A stretch of DNA of 29,491 nt. Origin: a virus. Position 1 is the first letter of the stretch. Each line of letters starts with the position of its first letter. Made by a program: the position numbers and the translations under genes. Shown piece by piece: positions 370 to 26,904 of the stretch. The stretch is from positions 1-29,491 of IMG/VR virus record IMGVR_UViG_3300028581_004268; one strand, given 5' to 3'. The notes beneath the pieces were generated by a model that saw only the letters and a list, made by a program, of their open reading frames with translations, ran no database searches and had not been told where the DNA came from.

Positions 370-399
370 TTGACAGAAAGAGCCATGTTGCGATAGAAT
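370..399 (+). promoter_or_regulatory. sigma70 promoter of C4 RNA, locus 1
   Basis: TTGACA (370-375), an 18-bp spacer and TAGAAT (394-399). Transcription would start about base 406, exactly the first base of the C4 hairpin. The second C4 locus has the same distance between its -10 box and its hairpin. The same promoter would read on into the leader ORF and antirepressor, as in phage P1. Confidence 0.75.
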
Positions 400-405
400 A
401 CCGCT

Positions 406-467
406 AGGACTTAGAAACTCCTTTTTTCAACAGGCGGATTCGCCTATACCGTCATATGGCTTTTTTT
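406..467 (+). ncRNA. C4-type antisense RNA, locus 1
   Basis: Matches the C4 antisense RNA plan of phages P1/P7. Hairpin AGGA-loop-TCCT (406-422) exposes element a' (TTAGAAAC, 411-418). Next comes b' (CAACAGG, 428-434), running into a second hairpin AGGCG-GATT-CGCCT (432-445), and the RNA ends in a seven-T run (461-467). Element a' is perfectly complementary to 617-624 and b' to 606-612, in the correct antiparallel order, both inside the leader of the antirepressor gene. Known role of the family: the processed or short RNA blocks translation of the coupled leader ORF and so keeps the antirepressor off in a lysogen. The assignment rests on structure and complementarity, not on a covariance search. 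Confidence 0.85.
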
Positions 468-500
468 ATATCTATACCCAGCATTGGGTGATCATTCTCT

Positions 501-551: not shown

Positions 552-563
552 ATCAATGTCGGG

Positions 564-650
564 GTGAGCGAATACAAGAGCCGTAAGGTAAATAAGCTCA
601 GCCGTCCTGTTGCGGTGTTTCTAACCCCCGACTTCCTACTTAGAAACTAG
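564..650 (+). CDS. leader ORF carrying the C4 target (orfX/icd-like position)
   Basis: A 28-codon ORF from GTG 564 to TAG 648-650; the frame is open back to 504 without another ATG. Its peptide has the pattern V-S-E-Y ... S-R-P-V-A-V, which recurs in the leader ORF of the second C4 locus (V-A-E-Y ... S-R-L-V-A-V). The codons for P-V-A-V-F-L-T contain both C4 target elements, and the stop codon follows directly on the second copy of a'. In P1 the C4 RNA acts on an ORF whose translation is coupled to ant; this ORF has that position and would play that part. The start codon is uncertain because no strong ribosome site precedes the GTG. Confidence 0.5.
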   Translation: MSEYKSRKVNKLSRPVAVFLTPDFLLRN

Positions 651-678
651 GAAAAATAGAAACAAATCTTTCAACAGG
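606..678 (+). promoter_or_regulatory. C4 target and RBS-masking leader, locus 1
   Basis: Contains target b (CCTGTTG, 606-612) and a (GTTTCTAA, 617-624), perfectly complementary to C4 elements b' and a'. The same C4 elements are repeated downstream as TTAGAAAC (640-647) and CAACAGG (672-678), 9 bases before the antirepressor ATG and overlapping its weak AGG ribosome site. The target can therefore pair either in trans with C4 RNA or in cis with the ribosome-site region. This is a built-in competition between two folds. Confidence 0.8.
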
Positions 679-687
679 TAAATCATC

Positions 688-1881
688 ATGTCTAATACAT
701 TCAAACTGCCCTGCGGTAGCATTGTCACAAATAATCAAACAACTTATGGTACTCTTGAAAATCTCTACACCATTGATTTGGAAAAAGGTTTAGTTTGCGC
801 TAAACATTTTTTAGAAGATATGAAAATAACGTGGAGTATTGAAGCGGTTAATATGGAGTTTAACTTCGATATTATTCCGATTTATCAAGTTGATGCCATG
901 GACTATTTTCACTCAATCACCAAACAGCCATTTGTAAAACCTCTCGATCTTCTATTACTACTCACGCTCTCCAAAGACAAATATTACATTAAAAGAACGC
1001 GAGATTTTATCTGTTCCACATTAATACCCTTTATCAATAAGAATAAAATTAAACATGATGATTTTAAAAAGGAGACTATCATGTCCAAAGTCACGCCTAT
1101 AGAAAACCACAGCCAAAAATTTCACAGTGATTTATTTGGCGATTTAACCGTTTTAACTCATGCCGATGGTAGCCTATGGTTTATTGGCAATGAAGTATGT
1201 GAAAAACTTGGATATAGCAACCCAAGAAAAGCTATTTCAGATCATTGCAAAGGGTGTAACGAAACGTTACTACCCTCTAAAGGCGGTATGCAAACAATGA
1301 AAATTATCCCAGAGCGCGATGTTTACCGCTTAGTTATGCGCTCTAAATTACCAACCGCAGAAAAGTTTGAAGAATTTGTAGTCAGCGAGGTTTTACCATC
1401 AATCCGCAAAACTGGCGGTTATGGTCAATCTAATGCTGCATTACCGAATTTTGCCGATCCTGCCGAAGCCGCAATTGCTTGGGCGAACCAGTACAAAGAA
1501 AAATCTGCATTGCAATTAGAGCTAAAAGCTAAAGATGAAATATTAGAACAAGCTAAACCAATGATTGGGTTTGCCGAAACTGTACAGAAAGCCGAAAAAG
1601 GTATTTTAGTTCGAGAGCTGGCATATTTAGCACAAAATGAGAGTGAAATTAAAATTGGCGAGAAAAGATTATGGAATTGGCTAAGAACCATGGGATTTGT
1701 GCATCAACGTAGTACTAGGCCTATTCAAGAATATGTTGAGCGTGGCTATTTTGTGATGCAGCCAACAATTGTGCACCATCATACAGGAGCGCAAGAGCAT
1801 ATGACCACCAAAATTACAGGTAAAGGTCAAATTTACTTTATTAACAATAAAAAAGGAGAAACAACATGCCAGAATATATAG
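688..1881 (+). CDS. Bro-N / KilAC phage antirepressor with N-terminal extension
   Basis: A 397-aa regulator predicted to inactivate the phage repressor in the cytoplasm. Three parts are visible. Residues 1-131 form an extra N-terminal domain whose end (TLIPF at 111-115) resembles the N-terminal domain of the Rha-type antirepressor at 23443-24609 (TLIPL). Residues about 146-245 are a Bro-N DNA-binding domain, with the typical wFiGNeVCekLGYsNPrkAI and VLPSIRKTGGY motifs. Residues about 280-392 are a KilAC/Ant C-terminal domain (KGILVRELAYLAQNE, then RLWNWLR). The ATG at 688 is the only start next to the C4-controlled leader and has a weak AGG site. An internal in-frame ATG at 1081 has a far stronger site and would give a usual-length antirepressor of 266 aa. 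Expression is probably controlled by the upstream C4 RNA. Confidence 0.85.
   Translation: MSNTFKLPCGSIVTNNQTTYGTLENLYTIDLEKGLVCAKHFLEDMKITWSIEAVNMEFNFDIIPIYQVDAMDYFHSITKQPFVKPLDLLLLLTLSKDKYYIKRTRDFICSTLIPFINKNKIKHDDFKKETIMSKVTPIENHSQKFHSDLFGDLTVLTHADGSLWFIGNEVCEKLGYSNPRKAISDHCKGCNETLLPSKGGMQTMKIIPERDVYRLVMRSKLPTAEKFEEFVVSEVLPSIRKTGGYGQSNAALPNFADPAEAAIAWANQYKEKSALQLELKAKDEILEQAKPMIGFAETVQKAEKGILVRELAYLAQNESEIKIGEKRLWNWLRTMGFVHQRSTRPIQEYVERGYFVMQPTIVHHHTGAQEHMTTKITGKGQIYFINNKKGETTCQNI
1069..1083 (+). promoter_or_regulatory. strong internal RBS and start inside the antirepressor
   Basis: AAGGAG (1069-1074), 6 bases, then ATG 1081, in frame at codon 132 of the antirepressor and exactly at the junction between the extra N-terminal domain and the Bro-N domain. 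It predicts a second, shorter product, like Ant1/Ant2 of P1. Confidence 0.75.
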
Positions 1882-2619: not shown

Positions 2620-2752
2620 ACCCTTGATGTAAAACCAGTATCTTTAAAATATCTTTCAGCTGCCACGCAATCGGCGTAACAACCCCCAACACTATCAAAA
2701 CGCCCCATGCTAAGCGGCGTAGTTTTGGTTTATCTTCTATTTTATCAGCCAT
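2618..2752 (-). CDS. 44-aa tiny membrane protein, MADKIE family
   Basis: Starts MADKIEDKPKLRRLAWGVL, a charged N-terminus followed by one transmembrane helix (about residues 14-34). It is a paralogue of the protein at 11995-12120 (MADKIENKSKFRYFAWGAL), including a shared PIAWQ motif after the helix. The chosen start has AAGGAG 8 bases upstream. An in-frame ATG 12 codons earlier (base 2788) also has an AGGAG, so a 56-aa form is possible. It lies between two terminator hairpins, as a separate unit. Function unknown. Confidence 0.65.
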   Translation of the reverse strand: MADKIEDKPKLRRLAWGVLIVLGVVTPIAWQLKDILKILVLHQG

Positions 2753-2814
2753 ATCATTAGCTCCTTTATTGACAAAAAATCCAAACATCTATATAATTAC
2801 TCCTGTATAAAATG

Positions 2815-2853
2815 AAAACCCCGACATATGAGCTTCCAACTCGTCGGGGTTTT
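2815..2853. terminator. conserved bidirectional hairpin, copy 1
   Basis: CCCCGAC (2819-2825) and GTCGGGG (2843-2849) with an inner GAG/CTC stem, flanked by A4 and T4. First of five copies that mark borders of tiny membrane-protein genes. Confidence 0.85.
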
Positions 2854-2892
2854 GTGTTTTGTGCGATCTAAACTTTCACATTCTTACGACTT

Positions 2893-3081
2893 TTAATCTG
2901 AATTAATTGTATTTTTATCCTTATATCTGATTTTAACTTTTAAATTCAATGGGTTATAACCCAACAAAAGAAGTAATATAATAACCCACCAAGCATTATA
3001 TTTAATAATTAAATACACGCCACCCGCTAAAATAAACATATTCCACAAAACCGCCATGCAAAAGATTAAAGCTTTATCCAT
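2893..3081 (-). CDS. 62-aa two-span membrane protein
   Basis: Starts MDKALIFCMAVLWNMFILAG; hydrophobic stretches at about residues 4-27 and 30-46 suggest two transmembrane helices, followed by a basic, polar tail. Its ATG overlaps the last codons of the upstream 37-aa membrane gene (3074-3187) with a GAGG ribosome site, so the two are translationally coupled and form a unit between hairpin copies 2 and 1. No family recognised. Confidence 0.6.
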   Translation of the reverse strand: MDKALIFCMAVLWNMFILAGGVYLIIKYNAWWVIILLLLLGYNPLNLKVKIRYKDKNTINSD

Positions 3082-3187
3082 GATAAACCTCTAATAATCT
3101 ATAAGTAAGTAATGTTACACATCCAGCGCTAATAGCAAAATACAAAAATATTCTAACCGCTTTACTACGTTCAATAATTTTAAGCAT
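3074..3187 (-). CDS. 37-aa tiny membrane protein
   Basis: Starts MLKIIERSKAVRIFLYFAIS: a charged head, then one transmembrane helix (about residues 11-30). The head pattern (I-I-E/K-x-S-K) matches other tiny proteins here (24830, 25049, 11840). AGGGGGA lies 10 bases before the ATG. An in-frame ATG 12 codons upstream (3223), with its own GAGG, would give a 49-aa form; the same double-start layout is seen in four other modules. The end overlaps the start of the next gene. Confidence 0.6.
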   Translation of the reverse strand: MLKIIERSKAVRIFLYFAISAGCVTLLTYRLLEVYHG

Positions 3188-3260
3188 TTTATTTAAATCC
3201 CCCTTGACATTAACCATAAACATAAACTATAATCCTCTTTGTATAATTCTATTTAAATAA

Positions 3261-3298
3261 AAAATCCCGACATATGAGCGCTAACTCGTCGGGGTTTT
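3261..3298. terminator. conserved bidirectional hairpin, copy 2
   Basis: TCCCGAC (3265-3271) and GTCGGGG (3288-3294), inner GAG/CTC, A- and T-runs on both sides. It lies directly after the split rha gene on the minus strand. Confidence 0.85.
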
Positions 3299-3320
3299 GT
3301 GTTTTCTATTGGTGAAATAA

Positions 3321-21787: not shown

Positions 21788-22162
21788 TTACCCTTTCGTA
21801 ACATTATTAAAAAACAGCTGTAATAAACGAGCTGAGTGCTTCATATCAGCTGCAGCGGTTCCTGCAGCAAACGTCAAATGGCTAACATTAAACTCACCAC
21901 TGTAGTAAACTGGAATAATCACATCGGCAGCCGTAGCATCCACATCTTCAGCCAAAACCGCATACGGATTTTTACTATCATCAACGGCAGATTTGTTAAC
22001 TAGTACCATTTTCTGAGTACTAGGAACTAAACCTAAAACAGCACCGCGCTTTAAATTTTGTCCTTTAGTTAAAATTTCTGTACCAGTTATCACTGGACAA
22101 GTAGCACCACTAAATAGACCATCATAATCTTGCCGTTGGCTGGTTGTTACATCTTGAGTCAT
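21788..22162 (-). CDS. D: head decoration protein, lambda gpD-like
   Basis: 124 aa, HDPD family. The opening (QDYDGLFSGATCPVITGTEI), followed by LTKGQNLKRGAVLGLV and the PYAVLAEDVDATAADVIIPV block with YYSGEFN, is characteristic. It binds as trimers to the expanded capsid to hold the DNA pressure. Its start overlaps the stop of the protease/scaffold gene (single base), and it is followed by the capsid gene, the same order C-D-E as in lambda. Confidence 0.95.
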   Translation of the reverse strand: MTQDVTTSQRQDYDGLFSGATCPVITGTEILTKGQNLKRGAVLGLVPSTQKMVLVNKSAVDDSKNPYAVLAEDVDATAADVIIPVYYSGEFNVSHLTFAAGTAAADMKHSARLLQLFFNNVTKG

Positions 22163-22527
22163 TATTTGTTACTCCCTTCAAAAACAGCTAAAAAAGCTGC
22201 GTCTTCTTTTTCTTCCTGCGTATTCCCTGCTGGATCTGTTTGGGTGGATGTAATCTTATTAACCGCACCAGCATCAGCCATTACATTTTTAATATGCGTT
22301 TTACGTTGCTGAGCCTCAGCTTTCATAATTAAAAATGAAACATCAGCAGCCGTAGCACCAGTATCAAATTTAGCTTTCGCTAAAATATCTTTGTGACCAA
22401 GAGCTTCAAGCTCTTCAATTTCTTTAATCCGCGCGCGCTCGGCTGTTTGACCAGCTTGGTATGCAGCGGTATAAACTTCATCATAAGTTGCCTTATGTTC
22501 TTTTTGGAATGCTTCAACTGTCAGCAT
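22162..22527 (-). CDS. nested scaffold protein (Nu3-like internal start)
   Basis: In-frame ATG at 22527, codon 225 of the protease gene, with AAGAAGGAG upstream (9 bases between GGAG and ATG), stronger than the start of the gene itself. It gives a 121-aa, charged, helical protein identical to the scaffold domain. Lambda makes Nu3 from the 3' end of gene C in the same way. Inferred from the ribosome site and domain border. Confidence 0.75.
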   Translation of the reverse strand: MLTVEAFQKEHKATYDEVYTAAYQAGQTAERARIKEIEELEALGHKDILAKAKFDTGATAADVSFLIMKAEAQQRKTHIKNVMADAGAVNKITSTQTDPAGNTQEEKEDAAFLAVFEGSNK

Positions 22528-23199
22528 TACGTGTGCTCCTTCTTTAGATAAAAAATTAGCCACTGGACTAGTGGCTGGTGGTGGTAAATGATGTTTGATT
22601 TTCTCTGCATAAGCATTACCAAAATCAATACCATTTAATATTAAATTTCCATTACTTTCATAATGAGAATCTAATTCTATATCGTCAATTACCATATCAA
22701 CAAAACCAAGCTTTAGTGCTTCATCCGCAGTAAACCATGTCTCATTATTCATCATAGTTGCGATTTCACTATGTGCCATCCCTGTTTTATCGTGATAGAC
22801 TGTTTGCATAGTTGCATTCATCTTTTCCAAAGTTTCTGCAGCCTTAGCGAATTCTTGACTATCGCCATATATAACAGTTGAGGCATTATGAATCATTAGT
22901 AGCGTGTTTCTTGGCATTACTACCTTATCCCCAGCCATTGCAATGATACTAGCGGCACTTGCAGCAAGACCATCAATATAAGTAATTTTATGACCTTTGA
23001 AGTTTTTAATAATGCCGTAAATAGCATGCCCTGTAAATAAATCACCACCAGGGCTATTGATATGCACATGAAGCGTTTCAGATTTTATTGACTTCAACCG
23101 CGAAATCAAATCTTTAGGGTTATTTTCTTCTTTTCCAATAACACCGTAAATATGCAATTCGGCTTCACCATTAGCAGTAGCTTTAATTTCTAAATCCAT
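22162..23199 (-). CDS. ClpP-like head maturation protease fused to scaffold
   Basis: 345 aa. Residues 1-185 are an S14-type protease: HVHINSPGGDLFTGHAIYGI, then the nucleophile Ser81 in GLAASAAS and the general base His104 in LLMIHNAS; an Asp in the following helix region completes the triad. Residues about 225-345 are a charged helical scaffold domain starting MLTVEAFQKEHKATYDEVYT. It plays the part of lambda gpC plus gpNu3, although lambda gpC is S49. The ribosome-site region is part of the 187-bp repeat, and the portal gene is 2.1 kb away because a moron intervenes. Confidence 0.9.
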   Translation of the reverse strand: MDLEIKATANGEAELHIYGVIGKEENNPKDLISRLKSIKSETLHVHINSPGGDLFTGHAIYGIIKNFKGHKITYIDGLAASAASIIAMAGDKVVMPRNTLLMIHNASTVIYGDSQEFAKAAETLEKMNATMQTVYHDKTGMAHSEIATMMNNETWFTADEALKLGFVDMVIDDIELDSHYESNGNLILNGIDFGNAYAEKIKHHLPPPATSPVANFLSKEGAHVMLTVEAFQKEHKATYDEVYTAAYQAGQTAERARIKEIEELEALGHKDILAKAKFDTGATAADVSFLIMKAEAQQRKTHIKNVMADAGAVNKITSTQTDPAGNTQEEKEDAAFLAVFEGSNK

Positions 23200-23205
23200 T
23201 AACGA

Positions 23206-23392
23206 TTTTCCTTAAAATTCTATTAAAATGCAATCGGCAATAAAAAAACCACCCGAAGGTGGTTTTAGTTATAACTATCTGTTTTATTCGGTTACCGGTT
23301 TAGCTGGTAACACTCAAATTAATGCTTGGTTGGCTCGGTAAAGAGTAACGCCAGATCATCGGTATCAACATACAGCCGATCTTCATGTTCCA
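23206..23392. repeat. 187-bp direct repeat, copy B
   Basis: Partner of 11370-11556 (two mismatches). Here the 40-aa ORF that runs into the repeat is complete, so this is probably the original copy. Confidence 0.95.
23242..23263 (-). terminator. repeat-borne intrinsic terminator, copy B
   Basis: Minus-strand ACCACC-TTCG-GGTGGT followed by T7. It ends the antirepressor unit before the capsid protease gene. Confidence 0.9.
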
Positions 23393-23441
23393 GAAAACGC
23401 ACCATCCGCCCATTAAAATAATTACTAAATTTTTCTGCCAT
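23319..23441 (-). CDS. 40-aa antirepressor-associated ORF
   Basis: Starts MAEKFSNYFNGRMVRFLEHE, 1 bp after the stop of the antirepressor, so coupled translation is likely. Homologue of the 39-aa ORF at 1866-1985 (YFNG-[KR]-x-VRF motif), which likewise follows an antirepressor, and truncated in repeat copy A. The end is acidic and hydrophobic (VDTDDLALLF). Conservation of both sequence and position in two loci with different antirepressors suggests a common functional role. Unknown family. Confidence 0.72.
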   Translation of the reverse strand: MAEKFSNYFNGRMVRFLEHEDRLYVDTDDLALLFTEPTKH

Positions 23442-23442
23442 T

Positions 23443-24609
23443 TTATGCCACCTTATTTAAAACTGCATTTATATCAATCTGATACACATCTCGCCATGCT
23501 TGCGCTGGATACGAATGTACCGCACCATAGCGGTCATCTGGAATATCTTTAATAACTAAACCATTTCGATTACAGAAGTAAGTTAATTTCAAACCGCTAA
23601 CTTTTATATATTTTAGCCGACTTTGCACCGCTAAAATTGTGGCATACTCATATTCTGACACAGGGCTGCTTAATTTTGCTTCAAGTTGACAAATTTTCTC
23701 ATCGCGTAACTTGAGCTTATCATTCGCGCGGGCTAATTTGCCTAATGCTGAAGCTTCGCGTTTGGAGCCAATTTGCGCCTTTTCTCGAATGGCTTGGCAA
23801 AGTTCATCACCCAAGAAATTATAACTACGTTGTAACTGCTCTTTCTCTTCCTCGGATTTGATCACCATCAAGGCTAAATCTTTGGCGCTCGGTAACGCTG
23901 GAGCTGTAGCAACAGGCTGTGCGCTAATTTGCGGCACACCACCAGCTAATTGATTTTCTAATTCTTGCCAGCGGTCCACTAAATCGGCGGTAAATTCTGG
24001 CGAGAGTTGCGCGACTACCACATAGCTATCTCGTTTGTTGACATGATACACTGTTTTAGGGCGGCCAACTTTACTTTCAGAGTTTTCCTCAATTTGAGTA
24101 AAACTAATTAACTCTTTGTTCTGTAACATTTCCATCGTGCGTTTTACGTTATCATGACGACGTTTAACAACATTTGCAATCTCTTGGCTCGACATCATTA
24201 ATGGCTCGCTTGCCTTAACTGAATTTAATTCAATTTTATTTGTCTCTGGTGACGTTTGAGGTGCTGCTGGCTTAAATAATGGTATTAGAGTGTTTTTTAC
24301 AAATTCAAGTACATGAGATATATATTTAGCTTCTGGCGCATTAACAATTAGCTCACCAATTTGAGCTATGCTAATGAAAAAATCTTCTCGTGGGACAAAT
24401 CCTTTATGGTTAGTATATTGCAACAGCATCGGCTTAGATAAAACTGCCTGTGCTGATTCTTTGGTATACCCCAAATGCAAAAAGACTGGATAAGCAATAA
24501 CCAGTTTGTTTTCGGTGTCAACAAATGTGAAGCAGTTAAGTAGATTTTCTAAAACGTGTTGTTTGGATGTTCTGGACGAATTTGTCGCCATTGGCATAGT
24601 ATTTAACAT
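23443..24609 (-). CDS. Rha-type antirepressor with C4-controlled leader
   Basis: 388 aa. Residues about 20-112 are an N-terminal domain whose end (EFVKNTLIPLF, 102-112) resembles that of the Bro-N antirepressor at 688. Residues 138-222 are a Rha domain (MSSQEIANVVKRRHDNVKRT, then KRDSYVVVAQLSPEFTADLV). Residues about 250-305 are charged coiled coil. The final 75 residues (LKYIKVSGLKLTYFCNRNGL, then DDRYGAVHSYPAQAWRDV) are a C-terminal domain found in phage antirepressors. The gene lies within the late operon between portal and protease but has its own C4 locus upstream and terminator downstream. The ribosome site AGGA is covered by element b'' of the leader. Confidence 0.82.
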   Translation of the reverse strand: MLNTMPMATNSSRTSKQHVLENLLNCFTFVDTENKLVIAYPVFLHLGYTKESAQAVLSKPMLLQYTNHKGFVPREDFFISIAQIGELIVNAPEAKYISHVLEFVKNTLIPLFKPAAPQTSPETNKIELNSVKASEPLMMSSQEIANVVKRRHDNVKRTMEMLQNKELISFTQIEENSESKVGRPKTVYHVNKRDSYVVVAQLSPEFTADLVDRWQELENQLAGGVPQISAQPVATAPALPSAKDLALMVIKSEEEKEQLQRSYNFLGDELCQAIREKAQIGSKREASALGKLARANDKLKLRDEKICQLEAKLSSPVSEYEYATILAVQSRLKYIKVSGLKLTYFCNRNGLVIKDIPDDRYGAVHSYPAQAWRDVYQIDINAVLNKVA

Positions 24610-24618
24610 GATTATTTC

Positions 24619-24688
24619 CTAGTAGAAAATATTGTTACGAATTATCTACCTTGTGGGTAGAGCTGGAGCTTCGTAACACCGCTACTAG
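24619..24688 (-). promoter_or_regulatory. C4 target and RBS-masking leader, locus 2
   Basis: On the minus strand: target b CTAGTAG (24688-24682), a GTTACGAA (24677-24670), then the C4-like copies TTCGTAAC (24641-24634) and CTACTAG (24625-24619), the last running straight into AGGA of the ribosome site, 9 bases before the ATG. All pairings with C4 RNA 2 are perfect. The order and spacing of the target pair are the same as in locus 1: 4 bases between b and a in both. Confidence 0.82.
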
Positions 24689-24730
24689 ACGGCTGTTGCT
24701 TATTGGATATTCGGCAACACTCCAACCCAT
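24635..24730 (-). CDS. leader ORF carrying the C4 target, locus 2
   Basis: 31-aa ORF starting MGWSVAEYPISNSRLVAVLR. The V-A-E-Y and S-R-L-V-A-V motifs match the leader ORF of locus 1 although the nucleotides of the C4 target differ. Its TAA stop lies within the second copy of a' (TTCGTAAC), so a translating ribosome would open the fold that masks the antirepressor start. It is in the position of P1 orfX/icd. No strong ribosome site is seen before the ATG. Confidence 0.55.
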   Translation of the reverse strand: MGWSVAEYPISNSRLVAVLRSSSSTHKVDNS

Positions 24731-24749
24731 TGATTTTGAGCGTGGAAAT

Positions 24750-24809
24750 AAAAAAAGCCATTGAACGGTTGGCGCCGCTAGTAGTTAATTGTAGGAGTTA
24801 CGAATTCCT
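24750..24809 (-). ncRNA. C4-type antisense RNA, locus 2
   Basis: Minus strand, 5' end at the hairpin AGGA-loop-TCCT (24809-24793), which exposes a' TTCGTAAC (24804-24797). Then b' CTACTAG (24784-24778), a GC-rich segment (GCGGCGCC) and the seven-T run (24756-24750). Same length (60-62 nt), same 9-base hairpin loop, same end (ATGGC then T7) as C4 RNA 1. a' and b' differ from locus 1 in 3 and 4 bases, and the targets changed with them, so the two RNAs should not cross-react. Confidence 0.83.
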
Positions 24810-24815
24810 GCCCGT

Positions 24816-24824
24816 ATTATATCA
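24816..24824 (-). promoter_or_regulatory. extended -10 promoter of C4 RNA 2
   Basis: TGA-TATAAT on the minus strand, six bases before the C4 hairpin, the same distance as in locus 1. No good -35. It overlaps the region just after the stop of the tiny membrane gene. Confidence 0.68.
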
Positions 24825-24829
24825 CATCA

Positions 24830-24940
24830 TTATTTCAATACCATAATTAATGGCGGTAAATATTTTATGACGAATATTGCAATTATACCCCATGCTATTG
24901 CTTGTAATGCTTTAGATTCTTTAATTAATTTTAGGCACAT
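24830..24940 (-). CDS. 36-aa tiny membrane protein
   Basis: Starts MCLKLIKESKALQAIAWGII; charged head, one transmembrane helix (about residues 11-33). The head and A-W-G motif resemble the 41-aa protein at 25049 (LEIIRDSVSLQALLWGVI). A GTG 12 codons upstream (24976) with AAGGGA is an in-frame alternative start, the same layout as in other modules. It lies between hairpin copy 4 and the C4 promoter. Confidence 0.6.
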   Translation of the reverse strand: MCLKLIKESKALQAIAWGIIAIFVIKYLPPLIMVLK

Positions 24941-25001
24941 ATAAAACCACCTATTGACTTTTTGAAAAATTACCACTATAATATCCCTTGTTAAATATCA
25001 C

Positions 25002-25039
25002 AAAACCCCGACATATGAGCTCTAACTCGTCGGGGTTTT
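25002..25039. terminator. conserved bidirectional hairpin, copy 4
   Basis: CCCCGAC (25006-25012) / GTCGGGG (25029-25035), inner GAG/CTC, A4 and T4. Between two tiny membrane genes. Confidence 0.88.
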
Positions 25040-25048
25040 GCTTTTGCG

Positions 25049-25174
25049 CTATTTTTTAATGTTATCAAACCATGATTTTATTGTTGGTGCAACTCCACGA
25101 ATAGTTAACATTGCTATAACACCCCACAATAACGCCTGTAATGACACAGAGTCGCGTATAATTTCTAGAGCCAT
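25049..25174 (-). CDS. 41-aa tiny membrane protein
   Basis: Starts MALEIIRDSVSLQALLWGVI; one transmembrane helix (about residues 12-30), basic end (DNIKK). AGGAG lies 7 bases before the ATG; an in-frame ATG ten codons upstream (25204) has an AAGGA. Paralogue of 24830-24940. It is bounded by hairpins 5 and 4, so it is a self-contained unit placed directly after the portal gene. Confidence 0.62.
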   Translation of the reverse strand: MALEIIRDSVSLQALLWGVIAMLTIRGVAPTIKSWFDNIKK

Positions 25175-25234
25175 GATAAAACTCCTATTACTATATAAAT
25201 CCATTTATGGTATAATTCCTTTCTTCTCAATATA

Positions 25235-25273
25235 AAAACCCCGCATTAAGAGCGTCTAACTCTGCGGGGTTTT
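25235..25273. terminator. conserved bidirectional hairpin, copy 5
   Basis: CCCCGCA (25239-25245) / TGCGGGG (25263-25269): compared with the other copies both arms changed together (GAC/GTC to GCA/TGC), so the stem is under selection. Follows the portal gene. Confidence 0.88.
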
Positions 25274-25317
25274 GCTTTTGCATCAACCAATACAATAATT
25301 ACTTTACGTTAATAAAA

Positions 25318-26904
25318 TCATCGCTCAACTTTCTGAAGTTTATTTAGCATTGAATCACTTGAAACTGTTCCAGTATAAACAGGCTTTTCTGTTCTTCTAA
25401 TTTTATCCATGCCTAATTGCTCAGCTTCAAGAATTTTTATAATTTCATCATGATTTAACCCTGTAAGCTCTGCAGCTTCCCTAGCTCGAGTACTAAATCC
25501 ATATCTAACCCTCAATTCTGCGGCATTAACCTCTTTCTCACTATCAATCTGCGGCATACTATAACCATTGAAGTTAGCGCTGGACCAAGCAGCTTGAATT
25601 GCGAGGTCATCAAAGAAACCAGGCATCGCAATTCGACCTTTAGCAACAGCTTCCGATAACCATTCGCGATAAACTGGTTCACAGAACTTATTAACTAACC
25701 ATTTGCGACGAGTTTTAAACATTTCATGTGCTGCAATAATTGCTGCACGCGAAGCTGAATAACTCGAAGTAAAGTTTTTCATCATATATTCTGGTGGTAT
25801 TTCCAGTGCAACAGCTATCTGTTTGAGTATTGAATCAATAAAGGTATCAAATGATTGATTAGCTCCACCAGGGGTTGCTGTAACCATTTTTTCTCCTGGC
25901 TTTAATGTCATAACCATACCAGGAGCCATTTTATATAACGGGCTATCTTTGTAACCCTGTGCCTTGATTTCTTCAAGTAATTCACCAGTTGGGTCGTCCG
26001 TTTGAATGAATGCCGCAAACATAGTACGGACAATTGCACCCATAATTTCAGCTTCAGTATAGCGCGATAATTGCTTAAATGTATTAATCACAGGCGATAA
26101 CAACGGGATTCCTCGCCGTTGCTCAGGACGTTCAACGGTAAACAAATGCAAAATATTCCTACGTCCAGATTTTTCACCAAATACAGGTACTCGCGCCCAT
26201 TCTGTAGGTTTTACCGTTGCGTAATTAACCGCATACGGCAACTGATTAACTATATGATAGTGCGATGGCCTGCCAGTTGTGTCATCAATCTCAATCCCAG
26301 CTAAAATATTTTTATGTAAATCTCTAGATCTAGGATTTTGTACCCGATCCGCTTCGAGAAACTTTAGTTTTAAATCATAAATTGAGTTTTTACGCTCAAT
26401 TATTGGCATCAGAATAAATACATCACCGCTTAGTAATACTGAAAGCATGGCTAATTGTTGCATTTGTTCAAAATTTAATGTTCCAGTACTATCGCAACAA
26501 TCAGCATCGTTCGCCCACAGACCAAACTCAAACTCTATTTTCTTCTCTAATTCCCGTGCCACTTCGCGGTCAATACCAAGGTATTCATAATTAATATTAG
26601 CTGATAGTGTTAATCCACCGCCAACTACTCCGCTGGCAATACTTTTAATCGCTCCAGTCGCTAATGGTGTGGACATAAATAAATCACGACTGCGCTGTAC
26701 TAGTGTGTCACGATTTACAATTAAATCACTATCCGCAGATGTACTGAATGAATTCCAAAGCGCCGTAGTTGCGCTGCTAGCTGCACCGCCACCCCCTGAT
26801 CCACCGTAACCTGTTTGACTGTTCTGACCATATGAAGTATTTGAACCAGTTGTTGCATACGCATTAAATACTTGCTTTACTTTCGCTGTCAATTTTTCAA
26901 ACAT
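25318..26904 (-). CDS. B: portal protein, lambda gpB-like
   Basis: 528 aa, lambda-type portal family and normal length. Conserved parts: RDTLVQRSRDLFMSTPLATG at the start, then EFGLWANDADCCDSTGTLNF, HLFTVERPEQRRGIPLLSPV and the segment PPEYMMKNFTSSYSASRAAI. It forms the dodecameric ring through which DNA enters. A Gly/Ser-rich stretch lies near residues 20-45. It starts at the stop of gpW (overlap of one base). Confidence 0.95.
   Translation of the reverse strand: MFEKLTAKVKQVFNAYATTGSNTSYGQNSQTGYGGSGGGGAASSATTALWNSFSTSADSDLIVNRDTLVQRSRDLFMSTPLATGAIKSIASGVVGGGLTLSANINYEYLGIDREVARELEKKIEFEFGLWANDADCCDSTGTLNFEQMQQLAMLSVLLSGDVFILMPIIERKNSIYDLKLKFLEADRVQNPRSRDLHKNILAGIEIDDTTGRPSHYHIVNQLPYAVNYATVKPTEWARVPVFGEKSGRRNILHLFTVERPEQRRGIPLLSPVINTFKQLSRYTEAEIMGAIVRTMFAAFIQTDDPTGELLEEIKAQGYKDSPLYKMAPGMVMTLKPGEKMVTATPGGANQSFDTFIDSILKQIAVALEIPPEYMMKNFTSSYSASRAAIIAAHEMFKTRRKWLVNKFCEPVYREWLSEAVAKGRIAMPGFFDDLAIQAAWSSANFNGYSMPQIDSEKEVNAAELRVRYGFSTRAREAAELTGLNHDEIIKILEAEQLGMDKIRRTEKPVYTGTVSSDSMLNKLQKVER

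Follow-up and report, generated by a model that had tools for sequence, protein, structure and literature searches.

A probable C4-type antirepressor cassette inserted among the late genes of a phage

What is a locus with the plan of an immunity switch doing among the late genes of a phage? The question arises from an IMG/VR virus record of 29,491 bases, analyzed over its whole length and called the window here. An earlier note had described in it a second C4-type antirepressor control locus, on the minus strand between the portal and protease genes, and our analysis supports this description. The locus (locus 2) lies, according to the annotation of its neighbors, between a portal gene (25318-26904) and a head maturation protease gene (22162-23199). 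Judged from its letters, it has the plan of the classic C4 switch of phage P1 with a pairing code of its own, and near-identical cassettes in other phages, at other positions, have different codes. We consider it very probable that locus 2 is an antirepressor cassette complete in itself, controlled by a C4-type antisense RNA and carried as a moron among the late genes.

Layout of the two loci

Locus 2 consists of three matched element pairs: a1/b1 upstream, a central pair b'/a' complementary to the other two, and a2/b2 at the ribosome site of the antirepressor gene. The hairpin, the copies of a and b, the T7 run, and the middle target claimed previously were all found on the minus strand by inspection of the sequence, and so were the copies of both elements at the ribosome site of a large antirepressor. 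The parts of the cassette are as follows.

24816..24824, minus: extended -10 promoter-like box TGATATAAT (sequence; invariant in four cassettes with unrelated upstream DNA)
24793..24809, minus: 17-nt hairpin AGGA-ATTCGTAAC-TCCT with a1 in its loop (sequence)
24804-24797, minus: a1 TTCGTAAC, loop of the 17-nt hairpin (sequence)
24778..24784, minus: b1 CTACTAG (sequence, covariation)
24750..24771, minus: weak stem GCCA..TGGC plus T7 (24756-24750), putative partial terminator of a short, IsrK-like a1/b1 RNA (sequence)
24660..24728, minus: putative antisense RNA core, in the C4 position (predicted three-helix fold, -23.4 kcal/mol)
24728-24719/24669-24660, minus: helix P1 of the core (invariant in close relatives)
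within 24660..24728, minus: helix P2 of the core, GTTGC/GCAAC (predicted fold)
24682..24688, minus: b' CTAGTAG, loop of helix P3 (sequence, covariation, fold)
24670..24677, minus: a' GTTACGAA, single strand between helices P3 and P1 (sequence, covariation, fold)
24634..24641, minus: a2 TTCGTAAC, upstream of the ribosome site (sequence, covariation)
24619..24625, minus: b2 CTACTAG, overlapping the Shine-Dalgarno AGGA at 24620-24617 (sequence, covariation, table of 21 loci)
23443..24609, minus: antirepressor ORF of 388 aa, ATG at 24609 (pRha domain; PHROG anti-repressor Ant)
23319..23441, minus: 40-aa ORF MAEKFSNYFNGRMVRFLEHEDRLYVDTDDLALLFTEPTKH, the part of the cassette directly 3' of ant (also after ant in L116 and L143)
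23245..23266, minus: intrinsic terminator CACCTTCGGGTGGTTTTTTT, 3' boundary of the cassette (terminator scan; common to L116, L143, and L141 in other surroundings)

The middle block, CTAGTAG-CGGT-GTTACGAA, spans 24688-24670 on the minus strand. The antirepressor ORF matched Pfam pRha with 38.6 bits (cut-off, 29.9) and also PHROG anti-repressor families. The stem before T7 is weak and is missing from the terminators listed by the scan tool, and the -35 region is not conserved among the compared cassettes. Locus 1, on the plus strand (397-690), has the layout of locus 2 in other letters.

397..470, plus: leader with the a1 hairpin (406-422), b1 CAACAGG (428-434), and T7 (sequence)
558..640, plus: antisense RNA, RF02221 (sRNA-Xcc1), with b' at 606-612 and a' at 617-624 (58.5 bits; cut-off, 53)
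640..678, plus: ribosome site with a2 TTAGAAAC (640-647) and b2 CAACAGG (672-678) (sequence)
688..1881, plus: antirepressor with Bro-N and ANT domains (domain and PHROG annotation)

A search for relatives of the locus 1 antirepressor recovered the same phage alone.

The architecture of locus 2 is real and not a product of chance: the window contains the triple pattern (8-nt a, 7-nt b) two times, whereas 200 dinucleotide shuffles averaged 0.005 occurrences. The triple pattern was used because the match between the upstream and middle elements alone is insignificant, 8+6-nt pairs giving about 43 chance matches per shuffled window. The same arrangement recurred in the 21 loci that we tabulated, which have 21 distinct a/b codes and all three copies in 20 cases. 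The a1 element lay within a hairpin of at least 3 bp in 19 of them, a T run of at least 5 followed b1 in 17, and b2 adjoined or overlapped the Shine-Dalgarno or the start codon across the table. The folded RNAs all showed helices P1, P2, and P3, b' lying in the loop of P3 in almost every case, a topology shared in predicted folds by locus 2, the RF02221 RNAs, the C4 RNA of phage P1, and Gifsy-1. As a separate observation, the a1 hairpin of L090 (G006) and its surroundings resemble, on the opposite strand, a tRNA 3' half with its terminal CCA.

Identity and family of the putative antisense RNA

The earlier note took the upstream hairpin for the C4 RNA and the middle element for its target, roles that are interchanged relative to the annotation of phage P1. 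In the P1 record, a1/b1 (48255-48276) is followed by the C4 RNA (48343-48419) and then by a2/b2, icd, and ant, with a2/b2 marked as sites of repression. The order of the elements in the window is exactly that of P1 in sequence comparison. Because C4 is the middle element in P1, the antisense RNA of locus 2 should be that at about 24728-24660 on the minus strand, and the upstream hairpin becomes the a1/b1 leader, the counterpart of Salmonella IsrK. It is very improbable that the upstream hairpin (24809-24750) is instead the C4 repressor RNA acting on the middle element. Complementarity is equal in both readings and the T run is present, so that the hairpin could be a free small RNA, but the annotated C4 RNA of P1 is the middle element, RF01695 and RF02221 match middle elements in relatives whereas the isrK family matches upstream ones, and the known upstream RNA, IsrK, is an activator (of anrP; PMC4825925). 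Moreover, the upstream a1/b1 could not pair with the ribosome site, because it has the same sense as a2/b2. Matches of isrK (RF01394) were found at the a1/b1 leader of P1 (E = 2.5e-7) and at the upstream leaders of two prophages that have C4, the scores being noisy near E = 0.01, with matches in 10 of 14 control genomes and none above the cut-off.

Locus 2 has in common with immI of phages P1 and P7 (c4-icd-ant) the order a1/b1, antisense RNA, a2/b2, and antirepressor. In P1, too, the RNA folds into three helices, the loop of P3 presenting b' and a' being located between P3 and P1, and a T run follows b1. Unlike P1/P7, locus 2 has no RF01695 match and no icd between the RNA and ant; its antirepressor is Rha-type, its a/b code is different, and it is an insertable unit among late genes. 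DNA similarity to named phages was confined to chance 40-bp matches. The seqA-CI RNA-seqC region of phage P4 also places an antisense RNA between two complementary sites, following the same logic (PMC4825925), but there the RNA acts on termination before the replication genes, without an antirepressor, and the likeness is by description only.

The link to IsrK is found in Gifsy-1, where isrK (34316-34240) is directly followed by an RF01695 match (34214-34131; 69 bits). The published positions of the IsrK mutants (C18, G28, G31, C159, C162, G173, and C175; PMC4825925) coincide with the corresponding letters of the Gifsy-1 sequence at offset 0 and at no other offset. Among them, G28-C162 and G31-C159, which are compensatory pairs, fall in a1 and a'. 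In the published activation of anrP by IsrK, a1/b1 thus pairs with the C4-type element; a stable RNA downstream of IsrK, STnc1160, is plausibly the C4-type RNA itself. Gifsy-1 (isrK-STnc1160/orf45-anrP) has, as locus 2, an a1/b1 leader with a terminator, followed by the RNA (here matching RF01695), a2/b2, and an antirepressor. It differs in that RF01394 has no match at locus 2 and that the isrK terminator is strong, while that of locus 2 is weak. Published models of this system invoke translation of orf45 (PMC4825925). In the region concerned (NC_010392, 34131-34316), the orf45 reported downstream of isrK overlaps the C4 RNA match, and the conservation of its nucleotides, together with the variability of its amino acids, points to an RNA and not to a protein.

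To which family does locus 2 belong? The earlier note had looked to an Rfam C4 covariance search, in which RF01695 proved to have no match on either strand at either locus; locus 1 is RF02221 instead. The gathering cut-offs are 45 bits for RF01695, 53 for RF02221, and 50 for RF01394. Rfam scans of the window and of locus 2 alone, with E up to 10, returned no C4, no isrK (including the upstream leader of locus 2), and nothing at locus 2, which has no RF02221 match at that limit and fails its cut-off. At the equivalent element of close relatives, RF02221 matched weakly and below threshold (26.3 bits in L116 and 15.7 in L141). Locus 2 resembles sRNA-Xcc1, of which locus 1 is a member, in fold and position, but it has no Rfam match, and its helix P2 is short, without the inner CCC..GGG hairpin. 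We kept it out of both families because the cut-offs failed, the relatives match RF02221 weakly, and helix P2 is short. Features of a C4 switch were nevertheless found: a'/b' is complementary to a2/b2 around the ribosome site of the antirepressor operon, copies of a1/b1 lie upstream in the same putative transcript unit, and the three stems of the predicted fold place b' in the loop of P3 and a' at the joint between P3 and P1. Locus 2 probably works like C4, as a divergent relative of sRNA-Xcc1 that belongs to neither Rfam family.

The sRNA-Xcc1 RNA is described as a virulence-linked trans-acting small RNA of Xanthomonas and not as an antirepressor lock (PMC2996969, PMC12444791). Complements of a and b were found downstream in 25 and upstream in 22 of 36 RF02221 matches (P ≤ 0.05 versus shuffles; about 2 expected), matches that are partly non-independent, several being from the same genomes or near-identical. 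Next to its integrase, the L116 prophage carries one more locus, a canonical one (57.9 bits). Alignment of RF02221-type RNAs by sequence only left phage P1 out of register. In G042, G043 (Bartonella), and G044 (Rodentibacter), each genome contained 5 to 9 elements of sRNA-Xcc1 type, among which many codes were represented.

Concerted change of the pairing code

Covariation was analyzed in an alignment of the window cassette with its relatives L003, L116, and L141, in which, with four sequences only, the 15 pairs between b'/a' and a2/b2 were paired in 59 of 59 cells. Both sides had changed in 7 of the 15 pairs, with 100% of the pairing kept. None of 500 shuffles reached this covariation score, and controls in which the segments were slid were 27-51% paired. 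The numbers for b'/a' against the upstream a1/b1 were identical, and since the pairings with the ribosome site and with a1/b1 give equal covariation, the three places change in concert. Helices P1 and P3 showed zero variation among the close relatives and, being invariant, give no covariation support.

The a/b code differs at the three sites while the 388-aa antirepressor is 90-95% identical. By analogy, this concerted change would fit selection to escape the lock of a resident phage, as P1/P7 heteroimmunity would predict (PMC5320573). Cognate duplexes had predicted energies of -11.4 to -15.5 kcal/mol. For the two loci of the window, the predicted energy of the cross-duplex was about 0, against -11.5 and -14.8 kcal/mol for their own duplexes. 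By these energies the two loci should not interfere with each other, and partial cross-talk is expected only between loci that have b in common, as locus 2 and L141 do.

Cassette boundaries and proposed mechanism

The four cassettes are homologous from the extended -10 box to the terminator CACCTTCGGGTGGTTTTTTT. The late-operon slot that a cassette occupies is a different one in each of four phages.

window (and L142 for the protease side): between portal and protease
L143: between a small membrane-protein ORF and a tail-sheath-like gene
L116: immediately before gpU
L141: immediately upstream of a tail gene

In L141, a different antirepressor (KilA-N) stands behind the same RNA unit. An RF02221-antirepressor unit near tail genes is also present in the Pasteurellaceae-type phage G009; a late-gene position is thus common for such units. 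As an observation apart, a 40-aa ORF of the form YFNGxxVRF... lies 3' of both antirepressors of the window (minus 23441-23319; plus ~1866-1985), and likewise in L116, L143, and L141.

The cassette is an extra gene with its own predicted promoter and terminator, found at varying places between conserved phage genes. This layout makes it a moron, an additional gene unit that a phage genome has acquired by insertion, and no late-operon switch. The suggested coupling of late transcription to antirepressor control was left unsupported. That locus 2 belongs to the late program, with late read-through yielding antirepressor late in infection, is unlikely: locus 2 is on the same strand as the late genes, and those downstream need transcription past it or a new start, but a promoter box and a terminator belong to the cassette itself, and its slot differs in each relative.

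Could locus 2 instead be a decayed, nonfunctional remnant of an immunity region left in the late operon? A real remnant does exist elsewhere in the window, but at locus 2 the ORF, promoter box, and terminator are all intact and the compensatory changes are complete in all four relatives, and we regard decay as extremely improbable. The real remnant, at minus 11557 to ~11400, consists of the 3' end and terminator of a deleted antirepressor cassette, and it adjoins an upstream terminator, CCCACTGAATAATACCAGTGGG, the one that precedes the intact cassette in L141. Two Rha-like ORFs (minus 11363-10821 and 3599-3321) are alike near their C termini, and the second matches PHROG anti-repressor families. 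A search for cassettes before these ORFs found the remnant before 11363 and nothing before 3599.

The layout, the covariation, the predicted fold, the cassette boundaries, and the predicted lack of pairing between the two loci come from the present analysis; for the antirepressor cassette under C4-type control, transcription, processing, the sign of regulation, and the role in superinfection are modelled on P1/P7 and Gifsy-1. A single transcript from the extended -10 box at 24824 would contain a1/b1, the antisense RNA (24728-24660), and the ant mRNA, and the middle RNA would probably be cut out of it; processing by RNase P is among the traits that define C4 RNAs, as is repression in trans. This RNA would pair through b', in the P3 loop, with b2 and through a', in the P3-P1 joint, with a2, covering the Shine-Dalgarno and silencing the antirepressor in cis and in trans. 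The lock would be lifted when a short a1/b1 RNA, terminated at T7, pairs with these same b'/a' elements, the role that IsrK has in Gifsy-1. Immunity specificity would then reside in the a/b code, a resident with the same code silencing an incoming ant and a resident with another code not doing so.

The same parts might also work as a riboswitch-like attenuator in cis only, the choice between a1b1.b'a' and b'a'.a2b2 setting the translation of ant without a trans-acting RNA. The three segments can fold in mutually exclusive ways, and pairing in cis was demonstrated by mutants in Gifsy-1 (PMC4825925). The C4 RNAs of P1 and P7, IsrK, and the C4-like RNAs of Acinetobacter, however, act or accumulate as separate small RNAs, and the compact predicted fold, three helices with b' in a loop, is of the kind that a stable small RNA has, making a purely cis-acting device improbable. 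The balance between the two pairings, and hence between cis and trans action, is unpredictable from sequence.

We put at about even chances a wider reading, in which C4, sRNA-Xcc1, and IsrK are one widespread antisense system made of an a1/b1 relief RNA, an antisense lock, and an a2/b2 ribosome site. The late cassette of the window would belong to a mobile branch of it, moving between phages as an antirepressor moron while its code is changed jointly at the three places, which would leave each phage with several non-cross-reacting locks. Such a reading would give a testable function to sRNA-Xcc1, otherwise widely annotated as a virulence-linked small RNA, and would join IsrK (activator) and C4 (repressor) as two halves of one circuit. 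With a code that changes in concert at three sites, reporter fusions would offer a direct test of how antisense immunity specificity evolves. These three names were nowhere joined in this way in the literature searched, a scope outside which the primary P1 papers and the 2011 Xcc1 paper lie.

Several units encoding a small membrane peptide (e.g., MCLKLIKESKALQAIAWGIIAIFVIKYLPPLIMVLK and MALEIIRDSVSLQALLWGVIAMLTIRGVAPTIKSWFDNIKK) with an upstream hairpin AAAACCCCGAC..GTCGGGGTTTT were also found in the window, at 24831-25276 and 2641-3300. One such unit is preceded by a site on the plus strand that strongly resembles a promoter (24954-24982; 11/12) and points at the hairpin. This arrangement of peptide, hairpin, and promoter-like site is as in type I toxin-antitoxin systems.
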